DNA from: Agromyces sp. ISL-38
GTDB lineage: Bacteria > Actinomycetota > Actinomycetes > Actinomycetales > Microbacteriaceae
Direction of reading: 5' to 3'
DNA: 64,000 bases
NCBI RefSeq assembly: GCF_018613935.1
Contig: NZ_JAGGPF010000010.1
Span: 1 to 64,000 of the forward strand
Positions 38,639 to 49,423 of this stretch are shown one piece after another (within the stretch, counting starts at the first letter, position 1; the number at the start of each line of letters is the position of its first letter). A program made the translations under genes and the position numbers. The notes under the pieces were generated by a model, which saw nothing but the letters and a program-made list of their open reading frames with translations, searched no databases and had not been told where the DNA came from.

Positions 38639-38725
38639 GCCTCCACGGTAACGATCCCCTTTCGGTCCCGTCGTGAACGCGACCTCGCGGCATCCGTGCA
38701 GCCGGCCCTCGCTACCCTTGGACCC

Positions 38726-40021
38726 GTGGCATTGATGAGAGACGCGCGGCGCGCGATCAAGCTGGCGAAAGACGTCATGTGGTCGCGGCGCGCCCAGCGT
38801 GCGCTTGCGAAGAAGCTCGCCGAGCGCCCCCCGCTCGAACCGCACCACTACCGCGTCGGCGTCTACTTCGCCGATGGCAGGGTCAACCTCTACCAGCTGC
38901 GGCAGTGGTACAAGCCGCTCCTCGAGCTCTCGAAGCGGCATCCGGTGCTCATCCTCAGCCGCGCCTCGGGTTCCGCCCTGCAGTTGCTCGACGAGGCGCC
39001 GCTGCCCGTCGCCTACGTGCGCCGTGTCGTCGACCTCGAGCACGTCATCCACGAGCAAGACCTCCACGTCGTGCTCTATGTGAACCAGAACGCGAAGAAC
39101 TTCCAGATGATGCGCTACGGGCGCCGCTGGCATGTGTTCATCAACCACGGCGAGTCCGACAAGATGTACATGACCACGAACCAGTTCAAGGCCTACGACT
39201 ACGCGCTGATCGCGGGCGATGCCGCCCGCGCACGGCTCGAGAAGGTGCTCTGGGACTACGACTTCGACAAGCGGGCCATCCCGATCGGCCGCCCGCAGGC
39301 CGACCACTACCTCGACGGCTCGCCGCTGCCGTATCCGTCCGACGGGCGCGAGGTCGTGCTCTACGCCCCGACGTGGGAAGGCGACCGCGGGGCCGCAGCC
39401 TACGGCTCGATCGCATCGCACGGCGTCGAACTCGTGCGTGGCCTGCTCGCGACCCGCCGCCACCGGGTGATCTATCGACCGCATCCTCGCTCCGGAGTCG
39501 TCGACCCCGAGTACGGGGCCGCCAACCGCGCGATCATCGCGGCGCTCGCCGCGGCCAACGCCGCCGACCCGAGCGCCTACCACATCTACGACAACGGTCC
39601 GGAGCTCGGCTGGCAGCTCGCTGCCCCCGATGTCGCGATCGTCGACATCTCGGCCATGGTCTACGACCGGCTCGCCGCAGGCAGGCCCCTGCTCATCACC
39701 CGCCCGGCGAACCGCGAGGCGCAGATCGACACGGGCGGTTACCTCCAGGCGTGCGAGTGGCTCGAGGCGACGGATGCCGCGGCGATGGTCGCGCGCGTCG
39801 ACGAGGTCACCCACGACGCGGCGGCACTCGCACGGCTCGGCGTGTGGGTCGAACGCTACTTCGGCGACACGACCCCCGGGGTGACGACCGCGCGATTCCA
39901 CGACGCCGTCGACCACCTCATGGACGAGTGGTCGCGTTTCGCCGCCATTCACGCCGGCGAGCCGGAGATCGACGAGTTCGAGATCGAGGCCGAAGAGGCC
40001 GACGAGGCTCTCGAGGCCTGA
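38726..40021 (+). CDS. TagF-like CDP-glycerol glycerophosphotransferase family protein
   Basis: A protein of about 431 residues from GTG 38726 (ATG 38735 is also possible). Polymerase motifs typical of teichoic-acid TagB/TagF enzymes are present: INHGESDKMY, VLYAPTWEGDR, IYRPHPRSG and VDISAMVYDRLAAGRPLL. They poly- or mono-transfer glycerol (or ribitol) phosphate from the CDP donor to a wall polymer. The C-terminus is a Glu/Ala-rich tail. It ends the rightward glycan operon. The donor is not proven, and a LicC-like cytidylyltransferase is nearby at 43329. Confidence 0.87.
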   Translation: MALMRDARRAIKLAKDVMWSRRAQRALAKKLAERPPLEPHHYRVGVYFADGRVNLYQLRQWYKPLLELSKRHPVLILSRASGSALQLLDEAPLPVAYVRRVVDLEHVIHEQDLHVVLYVNQNAKNFQMMRYGRRWHVFINHGESDKMYMTTNQFKAYDYALIAGDAARARLEKVLWDYDFDKRAIPIGRPQADHYLDGSPLPYPSDGREVVLYAPTWEGDRGAAAYGSIASHGVELVRGLLATRRHRVIYRPHPRSGVVDPEYGAANRAIIAALAAANAADPSAYHIYDNGPELGWQLAAPDVAIVDISAMVYDRLAAGRPLLITRPANREAQIDTGGYLQACEWLEATDAAAMVARVDEVTHDAAALARLGVWVERYFGDTTPGVTTARFHDAVDHLMDEWSRFAAIHAGEPEIDEFEIEAEEADEALEA

Positions 40022-40023
40022 GG

Positions 40024-40962
40024 TCAGTCGGCTGCGTCGTCGGGCGCGCGCTGACGGCGGCTGCGCGGGGTGATGGCACGCCTCGCTGCACCGGCGGCGC
40101 CCGCGATGCCGCCGCCGACAGCGGTGCCCACTCGTGAGAGGCGGCCTCCGGCGGCCCGCAGGAGCGTCGTGCCCTCGCCGGGTTCGAGCTCGAGCGGGAG
40201 CGCGGACGGTGGGGCCCCGAAGCCGAGTCGCGAGTGCCGCAGCACCCGTCGCCCGAGCATCTGATTGCCGGCGCCGCCGATCGCCGCCCCGATGCCGAAT
40301 GGGATCGCCTTGCCGATGATGCCGGCACCGCCGCGCACCGCGAACTGCTTGATGAAGACCGTGCGCAGCCGGTCGACGACGGTGCCCATCACGGCCTTCG
40401 GCAGGCTGTTCGTGATGAGTTCGCCCCAGTACACGTTTCGCGTGACGCCCGCGCCGGTCACCTGCGACGCGAACTGGCGCACGAGGTCGACGCCCTCGTT
40501 CCCGAGCATGAGCGTCATCACGAGCGCGCGTGCTCGGTCTGGGTTCTCGATCGCAATGCCGTGCACCTCGGCGACGGACTGGGCGAAGAGCGCGGTCGCT
40601 TCGAGGAACCCGACGGTCTCCACGCCCGAGAGCGCCAGGGTGACGCCCGTGCCGATGCCGGGAATCACTGCCGTCGCGCCGACGGCCGCTCCGCCCGTGG
40701 TGACGGCGGCGAGGTAGCGGCGCTCGAGGATGCGAACGATCTGCTCGGGGGTCGCATTCGGAGACCGCCGACGGATGCCGCGAAGGTGAGCCACCACGAT
40801 CGGACGCTGGATCGCCAGTGCACGGTCGATGGCGCGCTCCATGCCGTGGGCGCGGGGTTCGGCGGGGGAGGAGCTCTCGTGCTCGCCGCTGATGCCCTGG
40901 GGGCGCGGTTCGTTCGGGGCATCCGCCCCCATCGACGTGATCCGGTGCACGCGCTCGGTCAT
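40024..40962 (-). CDS. Conserved hypothetical protein with hydrophobic Gly/Ala segments
   Basis: A protein of 312 residues, not assigned to a family. An acidic/Pro-rich N-terminus is followed by a helical segment (IVVAHLRGIRR), then hydrophobic stretches AAVGATAVIPGIGTGVTLAL and AGIIGKAIPFGIGAAIGG that could associate with membranes, and a basic C-terminal tail. There is no catalytic motif visible. It starts beyond the 5' flank of the Wzm/Wzt genes on the same strand but 101 bp downstream of wzt, so operon membership is uncertain. Confidence 0.7.
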   Translation of the reverse strand: MTERVHRITSMGADAPNEPRPQGISGEHESSSPAEPRAHGMERAIDRALAIQRPIVVAHLRGIRRRSPNATPEQIVRILERRYLAAVTTGGAAVGATAVIPGIGTGVTLALSGVETVGFLEATALFAQSVAEVHGIAIENPDRARALVMTLMLGNEGVDLVRQFASQVTGAGVTRNVYWGELITNSLPKAVMGTVVDRLRTVFIKQFAVRGGAGIIGKAIPFGIGAAIGGAGNQMLGRRVLRHSRLGFGAPPSALPLELEPGEGTTLLRAAGGRLSRVGTAVGGGIAGAAGAARRAITPRSRRQRAPDDAAD

Positions 40963-41063
40963 GGTGGGTCGATCTTACGAGATGCGCTCGACCGGGAGCT
41001 GAAAGCGAACGAATTCGGAACGCGAGGCCCGCCGAGCGTCGCGCTCACGACAGGTGCGCTCTG

Positions 41064-41831
41064 TTACGCCTTCGACCCGTGGTCGGCGTTGTAACGCTCG
41101 AGCACCTCGTCGATCGAGGCGTCGAGCACGAGCGCTCCCTTGTCGAGATAAAGGCCCCGTGTGCAGAACCTCCGCAGGTCGCGTTCGTTGTGCGAGACGA
41201 AGAAGAGCGTGCGGCCGCCCGCGAGCAGCTCGTCGATGCGCCGGTAGCACTTCTCGCGGAATCCCTTGTCGCCGACCGCGAGCACTTCGTCGACGAGCAT
41301 GATGGGCTCCTCGAGCTGCGAGATCACCGCGAACGCGATGCGCACTTTCATGCCGCTCGAGAGGTGCTTGTATGGGGTGTCGAGGAAGTCGCCGATGTCG
41401 GCGAACTCGATGATCTCGTCGAACTTCGCGTCGATCTGAGCCCCCGTCATTCCGTGCAGGCCCGCGGTCAGGTAGACATTGTCGCGCACCGTGAGGTCGT
41501 CGACGAACCCGCCCGTGATCTCGATGAGCGGTGCGACGCCGCCCGTGACCTCCACGATGCCCTCGTCGGCGATCATGACGCCTGCGACGAGCTTCAAGAG
41601 GGTCGACTTGCCCTGGCCGTTGCGTCCGACGACGCCGATGGCCTCGCCGGGGCGCACATGGATCGACACGTTGCGCAGTGCCCAGAACTCGCCGGGACGG
41701 GTGCGGCGGCGGCGGCCGGCGAGCAGATCCTTGAAGGTTCGGCGACCGCGACGATTGCGACGGAACCGGATGCCGAGCCCGTCGGTGCGGATGGCGGTGT
41801 CGGTCGCCGAGACGGCGGTAGTGGCATCCAC
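41064..41831 (-). CDS. Wzt/TagH-type polysaccharide exporter ATPase
   Basis: A protein of 255 residues. Walker A GRNGQGKST, the Wzt-type loop VAPLIEITGGFVDDLTVRDNVYL, signature HLSSGMKVRIAFAV, Walker B IMLVDEVLAVGD and SHNERDLRRFC. It lacks the C-terminal carbohydrate-binding domain of O-antigen Wzt, so it should export without end-cap recognition, like TagH short forms. It starts 1 nt after the permease stop, so the pair is co-translated. Confidence 0.93.
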   Translation of the reverse strand: MDATTAVSATDTAIRTDGLGIRFRRNRRGRRTFKDLLAGRRRRTRPGEFWALRNVSIHVRPGEAIGVVGRNGQGKSTLLKLVAGVMIADEGIVEVTGGVAPLIEITGGFVDDLTVRDNVYLTAGLHGMTGAQIDAKFDEIIEFADIGDFLDTPYKHLSSGMKVRIAFAVISQLEEPIMLVDEVLAVGDKGFREKCYRRIDELLAGGRTLFFVSHNERDLRRFCTRGLYLDKGALVLDASIDEVLERYNADHGSKA

Positions 41832-41832
41832 G

Positions 41833-42633
41833 TCAGATCTCCTTCAGCACTTGGCGCAGGCTTCCCCGGAAGACCAGAAGGCCGATGGCAAGCAGCGCAA
41901 CCGACATCGCGGCCGAGATCACGACGTTGAACCAGTCGAGTTCCTCGGGGAAGAAGCCGGCACGATACAGGCCGAAGATGCCCGACAGCGGATTGAAGGC
42001 CGCCCAGACGTGCAGTTCGCTCGGCAGGTTGGACACGCCGTAGATGATCGGCGACGCGTAGAACAGGAAGCGCAACACGAGCTTCACCGCGCGCTCGAGG
42101 TCGCGGAAGAAGACGACGAGCGGGGCCACGATGAGCGCCACGCCGGCGGTGAGGATGGCCTGCAGCAGGATGGCGAGCGGGAAGTACGCGAGCTCCCATC
42201 CGACCCGCGTGCCGGGTACCAGGATCGCGAAGAGCGCGAGCACCGGGAGGGCGAACACGAACTCGATGCCCTTCGAGAGCACGATGCGGTTCACCCAGAT
42301 CGTGCGAGGGATCTTCGTCGACCGCACGAGCTTCGCGTCCTTCAGGAACGCGCGCGTCGAGTCCGACACCGCCCCGTTGAACCACATCCACGGCAGCAGC
42401 GCCGAGAGCAGGAACACCATGTAGGGCTCGGTGCCCACGGGGCGCTGGAACACCTGTGTGAACACGAACCAGTAGATGCCCGCCATCACGAGCGGATCGA
42501 GCACCGACCAGAGGTACCCGAGCGCAGACGTCGAGTAGCGCACCTTCAGGTCGCGTGTGGTGAGCAACCACAGCGAGTGCCGGTAGCGATCCCACGGCGT
42601 TCGCTGCAGTGGATGCGTGTCGGCGTAGCTCAT
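41833..42633 (-). CDS. Wzm/TagG-type polysaccharide export permease
   Basis: A protein of about 266 residues (ATG 42633, GTG 42636 adjacent) with six transmembrane helices. The family signatures are RDLKVRYSTSALGYLWSVLDPL at the N-terminus (broken here as RDLKVRYS and LGYLWSVLDPL), VRSTKIPRTIWV, VFFRDLERAVKLVLRFLFY and SPIIYG. With the ATPase downstream it exports a lipid-linked glycopolymer across the membrane, presumably the product of the enzymes at 35.8-40 kb. Confidence 0.93.
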   Translation of the reverse strand: MSYADTHPLQRTPWDRYRHSLWLLTTRDLKVRYSTSALGYLWSVLDPLVMAGIYWFVFTQVFQRPVGTEPYMVFLLSALLPWMWFNGAVSDSTRAFLKDAKLVRSTKIPRTIWVNRIVLSKGIEFVFALPVLALFAILVPGTRVGWELAYFPLAILLQAILTAGVALIVAPLVVFFRDLERAVKLVLRFLFYASPIIYGVSNLPSELHVWAAFNPLSGIFGLYRAGFFPEELDWFNVVISAAMSVALLAIGLLVFRGSLRQVLKEI

Positions 42634-42716
42634 CACGCTCTCATCGTAGATGCCGTGCCGCGGTAGGTTTGTCAGCAGACGATCGGCGCGTGCCGAGCCC
42701 CGTCGGAAGGAGCGTC

Positions 42717-43256
42717 GTGCACCGCACCAGCACCCGCGTGATTTTGAGCTGCGCGGCCATCGGCGTCGGCGGCGGGCTCTTCGCGGCCGGGGCGGGCTAC
42801 CTCGCGGGCCTCGTCGCCGGCATCGTCCCCATGCTCTACGGAATCACGATCGGTTCGCATTTCCTGCCGAGCGCCGTCGCACTCGCGTTGCTGAAACGAC
42901 CGGGCGTCGCGATCCTCACGGGGTTCATCGCGGGTCTCGTCGGGGCGGCGTTCGCCCCGCAGTGGATCCTTCGCTTCCTCGGCACGGGCCTGCTCGTCGG
43001 TGCGCTCCTCGAGCTGCCGTTCCTGGTCACCCGATACAAGAACTGGTCGCCGGTGCTCTATTACCTCGCCGCAGGAGCCGCCGGCGTGCTCCTCGCCGCC
43101 GGCACCTTCGTGGTGCTCGGCCCCGAGCATTACGCCCCGTGGTTCTGGGCGCTCTACCTCGCGCTGTTCGTGCTCAGCCCGGTGCTCTTCACGTGGCTCG
43201 GCCGTGCGATCGCGGTGTCGCTCTCCCGGGCGGGTGTCGCGCGAGCGCTCACCTGA
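42717..43256 (+). CDS. Small integral membrane protein, ECF S-component-like
   Basis: A protein of about 179 residues from GTG with GGAAGGAG upstream. Six hydrophobic helices run through it, with an ECF substrate-capture-like pattern (VAGIVPMLYGITIGSHFLPS, FIAGLVGAAFAP, LLVGALLELPFLVTRYKNW). S-components bind a vitamin or metal and need EcfT/EcfA1/EcfA2, none of which is nearby. It would have to use a shared module elsewhere. The assignment rests on fold pattern only; an unrelated membrane protein is possible. Confidence 0.6.
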   Translation: MHRTSTRVILSCAAIGVGGGLFAAGAGYLAGLVAGIVPMLYGITIGSHFLPSAVALALLKRPGVAILTGFIAGLVGAAFAPQWILRFLGTGLLVGALLELPFLVTRYKNWSPVLYYLAAGAAGVLLAAGTFVVLGPEHYAPWFWALYLALFVLSPVLFTWLGRAIAVSLSRAGVARALT

Positions 43257-43328: not shown

Positions 43329-44021
43329 TCACACGAAGTGGTTCGCACGCTCCAGGTCTTCTGCGAAGTCGATCTCGACCGCGTAGAGGTCGGAGATGTC
43401 CATCGGCTCGACAAGCAGGCCGTTCTGCTCGATGGCGAGCTCGAGGCCGCGCTCGAAGTAGTCCTGGTCGCCGACGCGCGCGAGGTGTGCGAGGAGCGTG
43501 GACTTGTCGCGGCTCGAGATGTAGTTGATGCCGACGGCCTCGCCGAGCCCGCCCTTGACGGTCTTGGAGAGCTCCTTGATGTAGCCCTCGGCGCTCGTGG
43601 TGTACTTGACCTCTTCGTCGGACACCTTCGAGGTGTTGACGGTCACGAACGACTGGTCGCGCGCGATGAACGGCAGCGCGCGGTCGAGGATGCGCGGGTC
43701 GAAGACCACGTCGCCGTTCATCCAGAGCACCCCGCCCGACTGCGACGCCTGCAGGGCGCGCATCAGGCTCTTGGAGGTGTTGGTCTGGTCGTATTCCTCG
43801 TTGTAGACGAACGACGCCTGCGGGAATGCCTCGATGATGTGCTCGAGCTTGTAGCCGACGACGATCGTGACGTTGGCGTTGCGGCCGAACGCGTGCTCGA
43901 TGTTGTCGAACTGCTGGCCCATGATCGTGCGGCCGTCGCTGAGCTCGGTGAGGGGCTTGGGGAGGGATCGCCCGAGCCGGCTCCCCATGCCGGCCGCGAG
44001 AATCACGATCTGGGTGTTCAC
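43329..44021 (-). CDS. LicC-like nucleotidyltransferase (CTP:phosphoalcohol type)
   Basis: A protein of 230 residues from GTG, with GAAGGAG upstream. Motifs: nucleotide-binding ILAAGMGSRLG and PKPLTEL, then NEEYDQTNTSKSLMRA (the TN..SL pattern of phosphocholine cytidylyltransferases), WMNGDVVFDP (metal Asp) and a late VEIDFAEDLERA. It would make a CDP-activated alcohol such as CDP-choline or a related donor. This fits the CDP-alcohol transferase and TagF-like polymerase a few kb away, though a sugar-phosphate nucleotidyltransferase is not excluded. Confidence 0.82.
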   Translation of the reverse strand: MNTQIVILAAGMGSRLGRSLPKPLTELSDGRTIMGQQFDNIEHAFGRNANVTIVVGYKLEHIIEAFPQASFVYNEEYDQTNTSKSLMRALQASQSGGVLWMNGDVVFDPRILDRALPFIARDQSFVTVNTSKVSDEEVKYTTSAEGYIKELSKTVKGGLGEAVGINYISSRDKSTLLAHLARVGDQDYFERGLELAIEQNGLLVEPMDISDLYAVEIDFAEDLERANHFV

Positions 44022-44265
44022 TGCATCTCCTTCGGTGGGTCGGATGTCGGGAGCCGCGACACCCATCGCAGGGTGTTCGGCGCAAATTCATCCGGAAGTT
44101 CACATATGGACACGCCGTTATGCCGGAGTTCAGGATACCGGGAGGGCGCCACCCCCACCACGGGGGAGGGACGTCGTGTCAGGATCGTGATGCGACGTTC
44201 AGGAGATCCCCAGCTTTTCGGACCGTGTGAGGAGGCCCGAACGAGCGCTGCAAGAGCCGTCTTGG

Positions 44266-44271
44266 TAGGTT
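44266..44271 (+). promoter_or_regulatory. Possible -10 element for a leaderless transcript
   Basis: TAGGTT ends 6 nt before the GTG start at 44278, the spacing expected if transcription starts at the start codon. No good ribosome-binding site precedes this GTG, and no clear -35 is seen. Confidence 0.3.
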
Positions 44272-44277
44272 GGCTTG

Positions 44278-46200
44278 GTGACTTCTGTTTCGCGCTCCAA
44301 CCAAGACGACGAAGCAGCCGAAGGCACCGGCACGGGGGTGCCTGAAGCAGGGGAATCCCCGACGGGCGCGGCGGCTGAAACCTCGTCGACCCCGGCACGT
44401 TCGGGTGCGACGAAGAGCACGGCCGCGGGGAGGTCCGCGGCACCCAAATCGACGGCTGCGAGGCCTGCCGCGAAGTCTGCAGCCGCCAAAGCTGCAGCCG
44501 CGAAGCCTGCAGCCGCGAAGCCTGCAGCCGCGAAGCCCGCGGCGAAGGCAGCCGCTGCGAAACCGGCGGCGAAGTCGGCAGCGGCGAAGTCCGCAGCGGC
44601 GAGGTCGGCAGCAGCGAAGGCGGCGGCAGCCGAGCAGGCTGAAGCCGAGCAGGCTGATGCGAAGCCCGAAGACGTGAAGCCGGCGGCACCGAAGCCCGCA
44701 GGCGCGAAGCCGGCGACGGCGAGGTCGACCGCGGCGAAGTCTGCGGCGGCGAGGTCGACCGCAGCGAAGTCGACCGCAGCGCGGACCGGAACATCGAAGC
44801 CCGCCCCGAGGAAGCCGGCCGCGACGACGACGGCGGAGGGTGAGACGAACCAGCCCGCACCCTCGAAGCGTACCGCGGCCTCCCGAGCCGCGTCGGCGGA
44901 TGCCGCGGCAGCGCGAGGCGAGGCGGCGAAGTCGACGCGCACCCCGCGGGTCACGGCAGCGGAGGGTGCGGCCAGCTCCTCTGCACCCAGCCGCGCGGCG
45001 GCGGCGGCGGCCGCGAGCAGCCAGCGCCAGGCCCAGCGCGTCGCGGCTTCGCTCACGACCGAGACGACGGCGGCAGAACGATCGTCCCGTAAGCCCGCGA
45101 CGGAGGTGCCCTCCGCGGAGGTCGGCGAAACGTCGACCGCAGAAGCGCCGGCCGTGCGATCCGAGATCGATGAGGAGACGGTCGAGCGTGCGCCCTCGCG
45201 TGCCGCAGCCGAGGCGACCGAGTCGGCGGCGGCGATTCCCGCACCGATGGCAGCAGCCTTCGTTGCACCGACCACCGAGTCGGCGACATCCGATGCCATC
45301 GCACCGGCAGCTGACACGACGGCCAACGAAGAGACGGCCACCGCCGACCAGGCCGTCGCCGTCATCCCCGTGCCGAAGAAGCCCTCACCGCGCAAGAAGC
45401 GCACGCTGCGCGTCGCGCGTCCGGCTCCTTCCGCCGACGCGCCTCGAGTGCTCGCGATCGAGGGCCTCGTCAAGCGCTTCGGCCCGAACACCGCGGTCGA
45501 CGGCATCTCGCTCGACGTGCGCGCCGGGTCGTTCTTCGGTCTCGTCGGGCCGAACGGCGCCGGCAAGACCACTACGCTCTCGATGGTCACGGGGCTGCTC
45601 CGGCCCGACGCGGGCACCGTGCGCATCCACAACATCGATGCGTGGGACAACCCTCGGGCCGCCAAGCGCGCCACCGGCGTGCTGCCCGACCGCCTGCGTC
45701 TCTTCGACCGCCTGACGGGAGCTCAACTCCTCTATTACTCGGGCGTGCTCCGGGGCCTCGACAACCGCACGGTACGTGAACGGAGTGCCGACCTCATCGC
45801 AGCGTTCGGACTCGACGACGCCGTCGACCGTCTCGTCGCCGATTACTCGGCGGGAATGACGAAGAAGATCGCCCTCGCCTGTGCGATGATCCACTCGCCG
45901 CGACTGCTCGTGCTCGATGAGCCGTTCGAATCGGTCGACCCAGTGTCGGCCGCGAACCTCACCGACATCCTCGAGCGCTACGTCGCGGGCGGCGGCACGG
46001 TCGTGCTCTCCAGCCACGGCATGGACCTCATCGAGCGGGTCTGCGACTCGGCGGCGATCATCGTCGGCGGGCGGGTGCTCGCTGCGGGCACCCTCGATGA
46101 GGTACGTGCCGGCCAGACCCTCGAAGACCGATTCGTCGAACTCGCCGGCGGACGCAAGGCAGCGGAAGGCATGGAATGGTTGCACAGTTTCTCCGACTGA
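44278..46200 (+). CDS. ABC exporter ATPase with long histone-H1-like N-terminal tail
   Basis: A protein of about 640 residues. From about residue 35 to 385 the chain is almost only Ala, Lys, Pro, Ser, Thr and Arg in AAKPA/AAKSA/ARSTAAK-type repeats, turning acidic toward the end. This looks like the C-terminal tails of histone H1 or actinobacterial HU/HupB-like proteins. A normal ABC ATPase follows: VLAIEGLVKRFG (about 392), Walker A GPNGAGKTT, signature DYSAGMTKKIALA, Walker B LLVLDEPFESVDP and H-loop SSHGMDLI. It overlaps by 25 bp the membrane partner. ABC family known; tail function unknown. It may bind nucleic acid or acidic lipid. Confidence 0.85.
   Translation: MTSVSRSNQDDEAAEGTGTGVPEAGESPTGAAAETSSTPARSGATKSTAAGRSAAPKSTAARPAAKSAAAKAAAAKPAAAKPAAAKPAAKAAAAKPAAKSAAAKSAAARSAAAKAAAAEQAEAEQADAKPEDVKPAAPKPAGAKPATARSTAAKSAAARSTAAKSTAARTGTSKPAPRKPAATTTAEGETNQPAPSKRTAASRAASADAAAARGEAAKSTRTPRVTAAEGAASSSAPSRAAAAAAASSQRQAQRVAASLTTETTAAERSSRKPATEVPSAEVGETSTAEAPAVRSEIDEETVERAPSRAAAEATESAAAIPAPMAAAFVAPTTESATSDAIAPAADTTANEETATADQAVAVIPVPKKPSPRKKRTLRVARPAPSADAPRVLAIEGLVKRFGPNTAVDGISLDVRAGSFFGLVGPNGAGKTTTLSMVTGLLRPDAGTVRIHNIDAWDNPRAAKRATGVLPDRLRLFDRLTGAQLLYYSGVLRGLDNRTVRERSADLIAAFGLDDAVDRLVADYSAGMTKKIALACAMIHSPRLLVLDEPFESVDPVSAANLTDILERYVAGGGTVVLSSHGMDLIERVCDSAAIIVGGRVLAAGTLDEVRAGQTLEDRFVELAGGRKAAEGMEWLHSFSD
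44400..44830 (+). repeat. Low-complexity Ala/Lys/Pro-coding repeats
   Basis: Imperfect tandem units of the type GCG-AAG-CC(T/C)-GCA-GCC encode AAKPA/AAKSA. The densest run lies around 44470-44640. Repetition is in the DNA as well as the protein, so length may vary between strains and assembly collapse is possible. Confidence 0.8.
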
Positions 46201-47750
46201 AACTGCGCCTGCTCGCGAACATCTTCCGGCGGAGCCCCTGGCAAGTGGTTGGCATCGTCGTCGGGCTCATCTATGGGCTCGGTGTGGCCGTGCTGCTCTT
46301 CGCAACGCTCGTCGGCTTGCGCTTCTCAGGCGACGTCGCGGTGATCCGCGACGCGTTCATCGTCGCCGGGGCGGCGACGATCATCGGATTCATCGTGTTC
46401 CCGCTCGTGTTCGGAGTCGATGACACGATGGACCCGAGGCGGTTCGCGCTCTTCGGGGTGCCCAACCGCACGCTCGCGTTCGGTCTCGCGGTCGCAGCCG
46501 TGGTCGGCATTCCCGCACTCGTGCTCGCCATTGTGCTGGTCGGCACCGTGTTCACCTGGTCGCGCGGGCCGGCCGAGACCCTGCTCGCGATCATCGCGGC
46601 GGCGATGGCGTTCGCCACGTGCATCCTGCTCGCCCGTGTCGCAAGCGGGCTGGCATCGCTCCTCCTCGCCACTCGCCGCGCCCGCGAGCTCATGGGAGTG
46701 TTCGGGATCCTGCTCATCGTGATGCTCTCGCCGATCCTCGTCGTGCTCGTGTCGACGGACTGGGCCGATTCTGGCCTCGGGGTGCTCGAGTCGATCGCGG
46801 GCGCGCTCGCCTGGACGCCCCTCGGCGCCGTGTTCGCGATTCCGGGCGACGCTGCAACGGGCGACTGGGGCCCCGCGATCCTGAAGCTCCTGATCGCCGC
46901 CGCGACCCTCGGCGCGATCTGGCTCGCGTGGCAGGCGCTCGTCGCACGCATGCTCGTGACTCCGGGTCGCGAGGCATCCGCCAAGAACTACCGGGGGCTC
47001 GGCTGGTTCGACCGGATGCCGCATGGCGCAACGGGCGCCGTCGCCGCCCGCAGCCTCACCTACTGGTTCCGCGATGCGCGCTACTGGGTGTCGCTCCTGA
47101 TGGTGCCGGTCGTGCCGGTACTCGTGATGGTGCCGCTCAGCCTCGCCGGCATCCCGCTCTCGTACGTCGCGCTCATTCCAGTGCCCCTCATGTGCCTGTT
47201 CCTCGGCTGGAGCCTCCACAACGACACCGCCTACGACAGCACCGCGGTCTGGATGCATGTGGCCTCGGGCGTGCGCGGTGCTGCCGACCGCACCGGTCGC
47301 CTCGTGCCGGTGCTCATCGCGGGTGTGCTCGTCATCGGGCTCGGGAGCGCCGTCACGGTGTTCGTGCTCAACGACTGGCGGCTGCTGCCGTCGGTTCTCG
47401 GGGTCAGCACGGCCCTGCTCTTCGCGGGACTCGGGCTCGGCTCGTTCACCTCCGCGCGGTTGCCGTATCCGGCGGTCAAGCCCGGTGACAGCCCCTTTCA
47501 GGCGCCTCAGTCGACGGGCACGATCACGGCGCTCGTGCAATCCGTCACGATGTTCGGTTCGCTGCTCATCGCGTCGCCGGCCGTCGTCTTCGCTGCCCTT
47601 GGGATCCTCGTCGACCCGGCCTGGTACACGGCATCGTTCGCGGCCGGCGTGGGCCTCGGGCTCCTCGTGCTCGTGTGGGGCATCTGGGTCGGCGGTCGCG
47701 TGTTCGACCGTCGCGGCCCCGAGATCCTCGCCGCCGCGCTGCGTGCGTAG
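46176..47750 (+). CDS. ABC-2-like transporter membrane subunit
   Basis: A protein of 524 residues from ATG with GGAAGG upstream, overlapping the ATPase gene by 25 bp. About twelve transmembrane helices occur in two clusters, before and after a cytoplasmic segment around residues 265-295 (SAKNYRGLGWFDRMPHG). Conserved bits are FVDDTMDPRRFALF-like VFGVDDTMDPRRFALFG and RSLTYWFRDARYWVSLL, typical of actinobacterial exporters of unknown substrate. Its only energising partner is the Ala/Lys-tailed ATPase. Confidence 0.86.
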   Translation: MVAQFLRLKLRLLANIFRRSPWQVVGIVVGLIYGLGVAVLLFATLVGLRFSGDVAVIRDAFIVAGAATIIGFIVFPLVFGVDDTMDPRRFALFGVPNRTLAFGLAVAAVVGIPALVLAIVLVGTVFTWSRGPAETLLAIIAAAMAFATCILLARVASGLASLLLATRRARELMGVFGILLIVMLSPILVVLVSTDWADSGLGVLESIAGALAWTPLGAVFAIPGDAATGDWGPAILKLLIAAATLGAIWLAWQALVARMLVTPGREASAKNYRGLGWFDRMPHGATGAVAARSLTYWFRDARYWVSLLMVPVVPVLVMVPLSLAGIPLSYVALIPVPLMCLFLGWSLHNDTAYDSTAVWMHVASGVRGAADRTGRLVPVLIAGVLVIGLGSAVTVFVLNDWRLLPSVLGVSTALLFAGLGLGSFTSARLPYPAVKPGDSPFQAPQSTGTITALVQSVTMFGSLLIASPAVVFAALGILVDPAWYTASFAAGVGLGLLVLVWGIWVGGRVFDRRGPEILAAALRA

Positions 47751-47802
47751 GAAGTCGCAAGCCGAGGCCGTGGTGCCGGGTTCGTTGCGTAGAATCGAGG
47801 GC

Positions 47803-48090
47803 ATGATCGAACCCGTGCACGCGAGCATCGCCGACCCGGATACCCCGGGTGGCGGCACCTCGGTCCTCGACCGCGAACTCGAGGAACTCCTCGAGAAAGA
47901 GGCCATCGAGCCGGGTGACCATGAGCGCTTCTCGCACTACGTGAAGAAGGAGCAGATCCTCGAGTCGGCGATGACCGGCAAGCCGGTGCGCGCGCTGTGC
48001 GGCAAGAAGTGGACCCCCGGGCGCGATCCCGAGAAGTTCCCGGTGTGCCCGTCGTGCAAGGCGATCTACGAGCGGCTCAAGGCCGGGTAG
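47803..48090 (+). CDS. DUF3039 small zinc-ribbon-like protein
   Basis: A protein of 95 residues. The acidic N-terminal half (LDRELEELLEKEAIEPGD) is followed by HYVKKEQILESAMTGKPVRALCGKKW and VCPSCKAIYERL. One Cys plus a CxxC and a nearby His could form a small zinc site. This is the actinobacterial DUF3039 family with no known function. It sits alone between the exporter and pncB (opposite strand). Confidence 0.85.
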   Translation: MIEPVHASIADPDTPGGGTSVLDRELEELLEKEAIEPGDHERFSHYVKKEQILESAMTGKPVRALCGKKWTPGRDPEKFPVCPSCKAIYERLKAG

Positions 48091-48103
48091 TGCCCGACGC
48101 GCG

Positions 48104-49423
48104 TCAGCGGTAGACCGTGGGGATCACCGCTTCGCCGCGCCCGAGGCGGAACGCGTCGATGGGGAGCTCCTGCATGACCTCGGCACGATGCGCTCGCGCG
48201 GCATCCGTGCCGGCCTTGCCGAGGTAGGCGGGATCGGCCTCGCCGGCCGTCATGAAGCGCACCATGAGTGGACGAAGCGACGTGCCGGCCTCGAACTCGG
48301 CCTCGCCGTCGGGACCATCGCCGACGAACACCACCTCTTCACGGGCGGTTCGCATGGAATCGAGCCGTCGCGCGGCGTTCTTGCGGCCGCCGACGCTCAG
48401 CTTCTGGGTTGACGCCTTCGCCACGGCCACCCATTCGCCGGCGTCGTCGCGCCGCGCGACGAGCTTGTACACCATGCCCGCGGCCGGGAAGCCCGAGCCG
48501 GTGACGACTGCCGTGCCGACGCCGTAGGAGTCGACCGGTGCGGCCGAGAGAGCCGCGATCATGAACTCGTCGAGGTCGCTCGTGACGGTGATCTTCGTGT
48601 CGACGGCGCCGAGCTCGTCGAGTTGCTCGCGCACCGCGGCGACGATCGTTGGCAGGTCGCCGGAGTCGATGCGCACCGCACCGAGCCCGAGGCCGGCGAT
48701 CCGCACAGCGCGATCGACGCCCTCGGCGATGTCGTATGTGTCGACGAGCAAGGTTGTCTTCGGGCCGAACGCGTCGACCTGGGCCTGGAACGCGTCTTCC
48801 TCGGAGTCGTGCAGCAGGGTGAACGCGTGTGCCGCCGTGCCCATCGTGGGGATGCCCCACGTGCGGCCGGCCTCGAGGTTGCTCGTCGCGTCGAAGCCGG
48901 CGATGTACGCGGCGCGCGCCGCGGCGACCGCGGCGTATTCGCTCGTGCGACGCGAGCCCATCTCGACCACCGGCCGGCCGAGCGCGACCGAGACCATGCG
49001 CGCTGCGGCGCTTGCCACCGAGGAGTCGTAGTTGAGGGTCGACAGCACGAGCGTCTCGAGCATCACCGCTTCGGCGAAGGACGACTGGATGGTGAGCAAC
49101 GGTGAACCGGGGAAGTACGCCTCACCCTCGCGGTATCCCCAGATGTCGCCCGAGAACCGGAAGTCGGCGAGCCAATCGATCGTCGCGGACCGCACCACCT
49201 CGTGCTCGCGCAGCCAATCGAGGTCGGCGTCGTCGAATCGGAACCGATCGATGAGCTCGAGCAGCCGGCCCGTGCCGGCCACGACGCCGTACCTGCGTCC
49301 GTCGGGCAGTCGCCGCGCGAACGCCTCGAAGAGGCTCTCGCGATGCGCGGTGCCGTCGAGCAGTGCGGCATCCACCATCGTCAGTTCGTAGCGGTCGGTG
49401 AAGAGCGCAGCAGACCCGGTCAC
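48104..49423 (-). CDS. pncB: Nicotinate phosphoribosyltransferase
   Basis: A protein of 439 residues from GTG (VTGSAALFTDRYELTMVDAAL). Family features: the DRYELTM opening, FSGDIWGYREGEAYFPGSP, the phosphate-binding region EMGSRRTSEYAAVAAARAAYIAGFDATSN, MGTAAHAFTLLHDSEEDAF with the active-site His, and VRIDSGDL. It makes nicotinate mononucleotide from nicotinate and PRPP (NAD salvage). It lies 4 bp after an EamA exporter gene on the same strand and is probably co-transcribed. Confidence 0.95.
   Translation of the reverse strand: MTGSAALFTDRYELTMVDAALLDGTAHRESLFEAFARRLPDGRRYGVVAGTGRLLELIDRFRFDDADLDWLREHEVVRSATIDWLADFRFSGDIWGYREGEAYFPGSPLLTIQSSFAEAVMLETLVLSTLNYDSSVASAAARMVSVALGRPVVEMGSRRTSEYAAVAAARAAYIAGFDATSNLEAGRTWGIPTMGTAAHAFTLLHDSEEDAFQAQVDAFGPKTTLLVDTYDIAEGVDRAVRIAGLGLGAVRIDSGDLPTIVAAVREQLDELGAVDTKITVTSDLDEFMIAALSAAPVDSYGVGTAVVTGSGFPAAGMVYKLVARRDDAGEWVAVAKASTQKLSVGGRKNAARRLDSMRTAREEVVFVGDGPDGEAEFEAGTSLRPLMVRFMTAGEADPAYLGKAGTDAARAHRAEVMQELPIDAFRLGRGEAVIPTVYR

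Follow-up and report, generated by a model that had tools for sequence, protein, structure and literature searches.

A long, charge-patterned N-terminal tail, predicted to be disordered, on an ABC ATPase of Agromyces and other Microbacteriaceae

The window, a stretch of 64,000 nucleotides from Agromyces sp. ISL-38, contains a single open frame running from a GTG at 44278 to a stop codon at 46198-46200 and encoding 640 residues. In this one frame, a 384-residue low-complexity tail rich in Ala, Lys, Pro, Ser and Thr lies N-terminal to an intact ABC ATPase. For the ATPase, the query was cut from residue 385 (position 45430) onwards, the AlphaFold model has its first beta strand from residue 390, and the domain itself occupies 45448-46197 (plus strand), with pLDDT block means mostly about 90 or more. 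A first-pass annotation had described this ATPase as ordinary, and it is: GPNGAGKT, YSAGM and LLVLDEP, which we take to be the Walker A, signature and Walker B motifs, are all found, and Pfam ABC_tran matches residues 408-550 (3.7e-26). The best NCBIfam match is TIGR01188, the family of DrrA-type ATPases (195.7 bits over residues 399-611), yet it does not reach the curated cut-off of 312.45 bits.

The start of the next gene, encoding an ABC-2 type permease (46176-47750, plus strand; a predicted helical membrane chain, assigned by fold match), lies inside the ATPase gene, and a permease with the same overlap was found in most loci of the family. It is followed by a gene for a DUF3039 protein (47800-48090, plus strand, putative start; PF11238, 2.5e-30), which marks the orthologous copy. 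On the other side lies a divergent NTP-transferase gene (43329-44066, minus strand; PF12804, 2.9e-16), a conserved neighbour. Within the stretches fetched, it was present at 50 of 62 DUF3039-linked family loci, at none of 13 unlinked loci and at none of 20 outgroup loci, the last figure covering only the approximately 1.5 kb that these loci hold upstream. With an opposite-strand nicotinate phosphoribosyltransferase gene, the NTP-transferase, the tailed ABC pair and DUF3039 form a group (43329-44066 and 46176-49423) that is kept in most family loci read. Further upstream (38696-42636), a second ABC-2 pair accompanies a poly-glycerophosphate transferase-like gene, together resembling an envelope glycopolymer locus. 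A predicted ABC_cobalt-type membrane protein (PF09819) is encoded at 42609-43256; of 40 family loci, only one has a relative within the stretch fetched. The NTP-transferase neighbour and the glycopolymer-like genes suggest a cell-envelope export setting, and indicate no substrate.

An extended −10 box, TGGTAGGTT (44263-44271, plus strand), lies 6 bases 5′ of the GTG, and is the putative promoter of a leaderless mRNA. A TTG (44275) stands immediately 5′ of the GTG; it is the GTG that the spacing of the box matches. The TGNTANNNT box is found exactly 6 bases 5′ of the start in the window and in all 27 other complete loci of the genus. At the level of the family, TANNNT lies 6 or 7 bases 5′ of an in-frame start in 55 of the 62 DUF3039-linked loci, preceded by TGN in 54 of the 55, and further in-frame starts carried such a box in 0 of 210, 1 of 370 and 0 of 152 cases. 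A study of M. tuberculosis describes a matching placement of the −10 box in leaderless genes, and TGN as rare there (7% of TANNNT promoters; PMC3898074). A box at 6 to 7 bases from the start codon implies a leaderless mRNA, and we infer that the tailed ATPase gene is transcribed in this form. The first 24 codons (44278-44349, plus strand), encoding an acidic N-cap, have undergone few synonymous changes, with a pS of 0.065; the ATPase has 0.23, and the other parts of the tail 0.39-0.50. At their third positions, codons 1-20 are 77-93% identical within the genus, near the ATPase mean of 79%, so that the case for a nucleotide-level signal in this 5′ region, drawn from pS and from the identity profile, rests mainly on the low pS. 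Across 28 Agromyces loci, the box and the first ∼60 coding bases (44263-44349) are nearly unchanged. Such conservation hints that the leaderless 5′ end may act as a translation or regulatory element.

The first-pass annotation had named two findings that would dispose of the tail: orthologues starting at about residue 385 with their own ribosome-binding site, or an assembly artefact of repeated units. More broadly, a wrong start, a frame error or a faulty assembly could have added the tail to a protein that truly begins near residue 385. A few observations go in this direction: in other families, the orthologous proteins begin near the ATPase domain, and an in-frame boxed start is missing from 7 of the 62 linked loci, including L118, which a contig end truncates, and L107, where a frame break separates the boxed start from the ATPase. 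The break, also seen in L303 from the same genome, is either an assembly error or real, and in four other species of L107's genus the boxed start is in frame. Strongly against this explanation, the other 55 linked loci have a distal boxed start in frame with the ATPase, and none of the in-frame starts listed for the window gene has a Shine-Dalgarno match of 5 bases or more, the best match at the gene start being 4 bases. Of 83 genus starts located at most 80 codons from the ATPase, 7 have such a match, four of them in the single locus L038, and their distances differ. Together, the Shine-Dalgarno scan and the boxed starts rule out that translation begins near residue 385 from a separate ribosome-binding site.

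The tail also evolves as coding sequence. In 8 pairs of loci, 62 of 67 gaps in the tail are multiples of three, the 5 exceptions all falling in the pair L053/L054. Over 13 pairs, pN is lower than pS in every tail, and dN/dS amounts to 0.22-0.53 for the tail and 0.03-0.10 for the ATPase; these are counting estimates made without a tree, and some loci are used in more than one of the 13 pairs. Recurrence of the tail in independent genomes, in-frame gaps and dN/dS together rule out an assembly artefact, and we consider it extremely improbable that any error of start, frame or assembly accounts for the tail. The long tail is real, is read in the same frame as the ATPase, and is kept in the genus and in the family.

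Microbacteriaceae are soil and plant bacteria. At a threshold of 1e-70, matches to the ATPase were found in 59 of 60 genomes of the genus and 245 of 299 genomes of the family; of the 54 without a match, the 20 listed are genomes of 0.9-2.4 Mb. Downstream genes were read for 75 family loci, comprising 66 first copies (about one per genus) and 9 second copies, and DUF3039 was near the ATPase/permease pair in 62 of them. In one of these (L202), DUF3039 lies on the opposite strand, whereas L094 has its permease 2 kb further downstream. The 55 boxed linked tails have a median length of 229 residues and extremes of 49 and 717, a variation of about 15-fold among genera; 42 of the 55 reach 100 residues or more. 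No clear long tail was found in the 13 unlinked family copies; the nearest to an exception is L209, with an apparent extension of 56-82 residues, and the frame of L208 is open for at most 130 residues, has no box and by eye is unlike the tails. Tail-less paralogues (L210-L212, L199 and L207), ∼64-65% identical, have their own permease and no DUF3039, and share genomes with a tailed copy. Among 80 named loci, DUF3039 is present in 76 and the box in 72; six of the 8 unboxed loci are cut by contig ends, and two complete boxed tails have just 18 and 24 residues (L292 and L289, respectively).

In other families of the order, TANNNT was found in 17 of 20 loci (one with TGN), the start lying 0-65 residues from the ATPase. 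DUF3039 is downstream in 7 of these 20 loci, 6 of which are boxed, with leaders of 0-25 residues. Since the boxed start of other families lies so near the ATPase, the start seems to be old and the tail to have been inserted behind it. Judged from these sequences, a short leader most likely lengthened into the tail within Microbacteriaceae.

The tail had been described as basic then acidic. This order is present, and the window tail has in addition an acidic cap and a basic patch on the ATPase side: residues 1-30 are acidic, 31-180 mostly basic, 181-270 mixed, 271-360 acidic and 361-390 basic (net +8), for an overall net charge of +16. The basic Ala/Lys/Pro/Ser repeat block (44350-44862, plus strand) was delimited by composition, by imperfect tandem repeats and by its dN/dS of 0.47; repeat units of the tail match each other at 66-87%. 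An island, SKRTAAS...TTETTAAER..RK (44863-45096, plus strand; dN/dS 0.14, 8 gap codons in 8 pairs), is followed by the acidic block (45097-45348, plus strand; dN/dS 0.45), and a stretch with the basic patch QAVAVIPVPKKPSPRKKRTLRVARPAP... (45349-45447, plus strand; dN/dS 0.12) adjoins the ATPase (dN/dS 0.05). For the acidic cap, dN/dS is 0.54, a value based on few changes. All these values come from 8 separate pairs, in which the two repeat blocks have 216 and 307 gap codons, and the values of 0.45-0.47 mean that constraint on the repeat blocks is weak. SKRTxAS is present in 24 of 28 complete genus tails. The charge layout of the genus was read in the 24 of 28 complete tails that have the exact TTETT landmark: in all 24, the acidic block is negative and the last 30 residues are net positive.

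The comparison with histone H1 made in the first-pass annotation fits part of the tail only. Residues 44-185 contain 46% Ala, 14% Lys, 5% Arg and 4% Asp plus Glu, and the first half of the tail has the Ala/Lys/Pro repeat style of H1 and HupB tails; Lys makes up ∼7% of the whole tail, and both Lys shares are lower than in H1 tails. Unlike these proteins, the Agromyces tail is not basic throughout, has an adjoining acidic block, and is attached to an exporter ATPase. Across the family, the net charge of 56 tails ranges from −86 to +30 (28 positive, 23 negative, 5 zero), so a basic DNA-binding tail is not a shared family trait. If the basic block bound nucleic acid in the manner of HupB or H1, the exporter could be kept near DNA or ribosomes. 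The C-terminal domain of HupB, with its PAKK/KAAK motifs, is required for nucleoid association (PMC5676037), and AAK occurs in 30 of 56 family tails and [KR]P[AT][AT][KR] in 18 of 56. This tether to nucleoid or RNA is improbable, given the tails of negative or zero net charge, the 26 tails from which AAK is missing, the modest Lys content, and an acidic block next to the basic one that would compete for it. A DNA pattern for AAKxAAK occurs twice in the tailed gene and in one other place (reversed control: one hit); by eye, this third occurrence lies towards the end of a short gene unrelated to the tail.

The tail resembles no known domain. Pfam returned only Extensin_1 (0.0026, 18 bits versus a cut-off of 105), NCBIfam gave no match at 0.1, and a search of the tail against its own genome, in which 150 of 545 candidates were scored, gave only the tail itself at E ≤ 0.001. 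The tail is predicted to be disordered: mean pLDDT is 36-47 in the ten-residue blocks of the first 360 residues, while most of the ATPase scores about 90 or higher, and 353 residues, nearly all in the tail, fall below 50. The AlphaFold model was built with 32 of 38 available sequences, the tails of which align poorly (three loci were dropped from A1 and six from A2). FWYCILVM make up 6% of the window tail, a low share that leaves few stickers, in the sense used for phase separation.

Among genera, little sequence is shared between tails. For tails of at least 100 residues after trimming of both ends, 457 of 561 pairs gave no alignment above Z 3, a score that is rough since it comes from 12 local shuffles for each pair. 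The two islands kept within Agromyces are lost across genera; SKRTxAS and TTETT were rejected as family-wide signatures, KRT.AS being found in only 3 of 56 tails and TT[ED]TT in only 1 of 56. Charge order fares differently. Charge tests were done on linked loci with a boxed start, using tails of 100 residues or more for segregation and of 150 or more for block order. Segregation of charges was significant (p ≤ 0.05) for 30 of the 43 family tails and 23 of the 28 genus tails, and not significant for the remaining 13 family tails. A basic and an acidic 60-residue block were both present in 29 of the 37 longer tails, versus 13.65 in shuffles, one of the two being absent from the other 8. The basic block precedes the acidic one in 28 of these 29, a count that ignores relatedness among genera; they share ancestry, so 28:1 does not stand for 29 independent events. 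The trait kept across genera is thus mostly the order of charges, an acidic cap followed by a basic and then an acidic block, and not the sequence. Conservation in related genomes, which the first-pass annotation had proposed to check, holds mostly for charge order and for general composition, and fails for length.

These data can also be read as a largely neutral expansion, in which GC-rich Ala/Lys/Pro codon repeats multiplied by slippage within a permissive N-terminal linker, and only the two islands and the 5′ end are functional. The wide range of tail lengths, the two signs of net charge, and the repeat blocks with their weak constraint and numerous gap codons are in line with it, as is a Pro/Ala-rich leader of 65 residues in another family (L170). 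It accounts less well for a basic-first order in nearly all two-block tails despite little alignable sequence, for charge blocks in excess of shuffles, for islands at dN/dS 0.12-0.14, and for the short length of most unlinked copies in the same family. We see neutral expansion as possible and rather doubtful.

The stretch next to the ATPase raises another possibility, namely a membrane tether or autoinhibitory switch, in which the basic patch would bind anionic lipid or the ATPase and gate the use of ATP. The low dN/dS of this stretch and its positive charge in all TTETT-bearing genus tails agree with such a role, and in the family the last 30 residues are positive in 35 of 56 tails. There are however 21 tails without a positive end, and the long distal tail would be left unexplained. 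We regard it as unlikely; it overlaps part of the clustering explanation proposed below.

What the ATPase works with is suggested by the permease model, which is all helical (pLDDT 82; pTM 0.61, a moderate value). By sequence, the permease had no PDB chain at E ≤ 1 and no convincing Pfam match, no family matching more than 1 of 38 members. In Foldseek no row reached E ≤ 0.001; the top one, at E 0.011, was 8k1p_A, a mycobacterial efflux pump. With VIA-align, in a comparison covering the listed folds only, the C-terminal half (285-515) matched 8ce1_B at Z 16.0 (rmsd 3.7, 213 aligned). In the layout of Rv1217c, one chain comprises two ABC-2 halves; here, the N-terminal half (1-264) matched 8wam_A more weakly (Z 10.2, rmsd 4.4), and the whole permease matched 8k1n_C loosely (Z 9.8, rmsd 8.5, 415 aligned, 14% identity), both scores being below the level that VIA-align trusts for helical bundles. 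The ATPase sequence itself is similar to Rv1218c (phmmer 1.4e-34), for which the PDB has 3 entries and 6 chains. In Rv1217c/Rv1218c, a multidrug efflux pump of M. tuberculosis, ATPase and permease are also separate chains; PMC7761784 ascribes to this pump a TMD of 12 predicted helices, and a table there has the notation [TM/NBD](2x). The tailed ATPase and its permease would then form an ABC-2 exporter of this layout, with two ATPases. The Agromyces pump differs in its DUF3039 neighbour and in its long tail, which the 311-residue PDB chain of Rv1218c does not have.

It had been stated that such tails are not a feature of exporters, and this proved too strong. For Rv1747, a mycobacterial ABC exporter, PMC9312465 ties the disordered linker to condensates and nanoclusters, and disorder in the flanks of ABC proteins has been surveyed (PMC13257379). 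Rv1747 and the Agromyces protein are alike as ABC exporters with a long disordered cytoplasmic region, predicted only in the latter. They differ in that the Rv1747 linker joins two FHA domains in a protein where ATPase and membrane domain form one chain, whereas the Agromyces tail is free, ends in no known domain, is Ala-rich and has its charges in blocks. No FHA domain was found in the tailed ATPase in the Pfam scan at E ≤ 1. Literature searches found no paper on such tails, their matches being to disorder, condensates and ABC proteins generally.

Since its sequence varies among genera but its charge order is mostly kept, the role of the tail is probably a physical one, for example to cluster the exporter or to anchor it. 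Our preferred reading, to which we give a little less than an even chance, is that of a free disordered block polyampholyte which clusters or positions the pump electrostatically. It starts from what is read in the sequence, namely the tail, its start and its charge order, and adds the predicted disorder and the predicted permease fold. Beyond this, stoichiometry, clustering and any effect on the ATPase are conditional. A pump with two ATPases would carry two cytoplasmic tails. Blocks of opposite charge on neighbouring tails would attract each other, and the pumps would cluster or stay at particular sites of the membrane. The basic patch beside the ATPase might contact anionic lipid, or else the acidic block of the same tail, and this contact could set how free the ATPase is. 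Clustering is proposed because the tail is disordered and has its charges in blocks, because each pump would have two such tails, and because Rv1747 offers a precedent. Differences in length and in the sign of net charge among genera count against it, as do the 13 of 43 and 8 of 37 tails without the pattern, the two very short boxed tails, the weak constraint on the repeat blocks, the small number of stickers, the poor alignment of tails behind the AlphaFold model, and the moderate permease model with its loose full-length match. A bolder version, in which the tail is a selected electrostatic device, inherited only as a block order, with two free, domain-less tails per pump that cluster or condense exporters family-wide and a leaderless 5′ end conserved at the nucleotide level, strikes us as possible and on the doubtful side.

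Poor conservation makes the disordered flanks of ABC transporters difficult to investigate. Here, a single orthologous pump provides about 60 natural variants (the 62 linked loci) with the same start type, neighbours and ATPase. The 55 boxed tails span more than an order of magnitude in length, and tail-less paralogues and sister families serve as controls. If selection keeps the charge order, the family would offer a clean system for the control of a membrane pump by the bulk electrostatics of a disordered tail.
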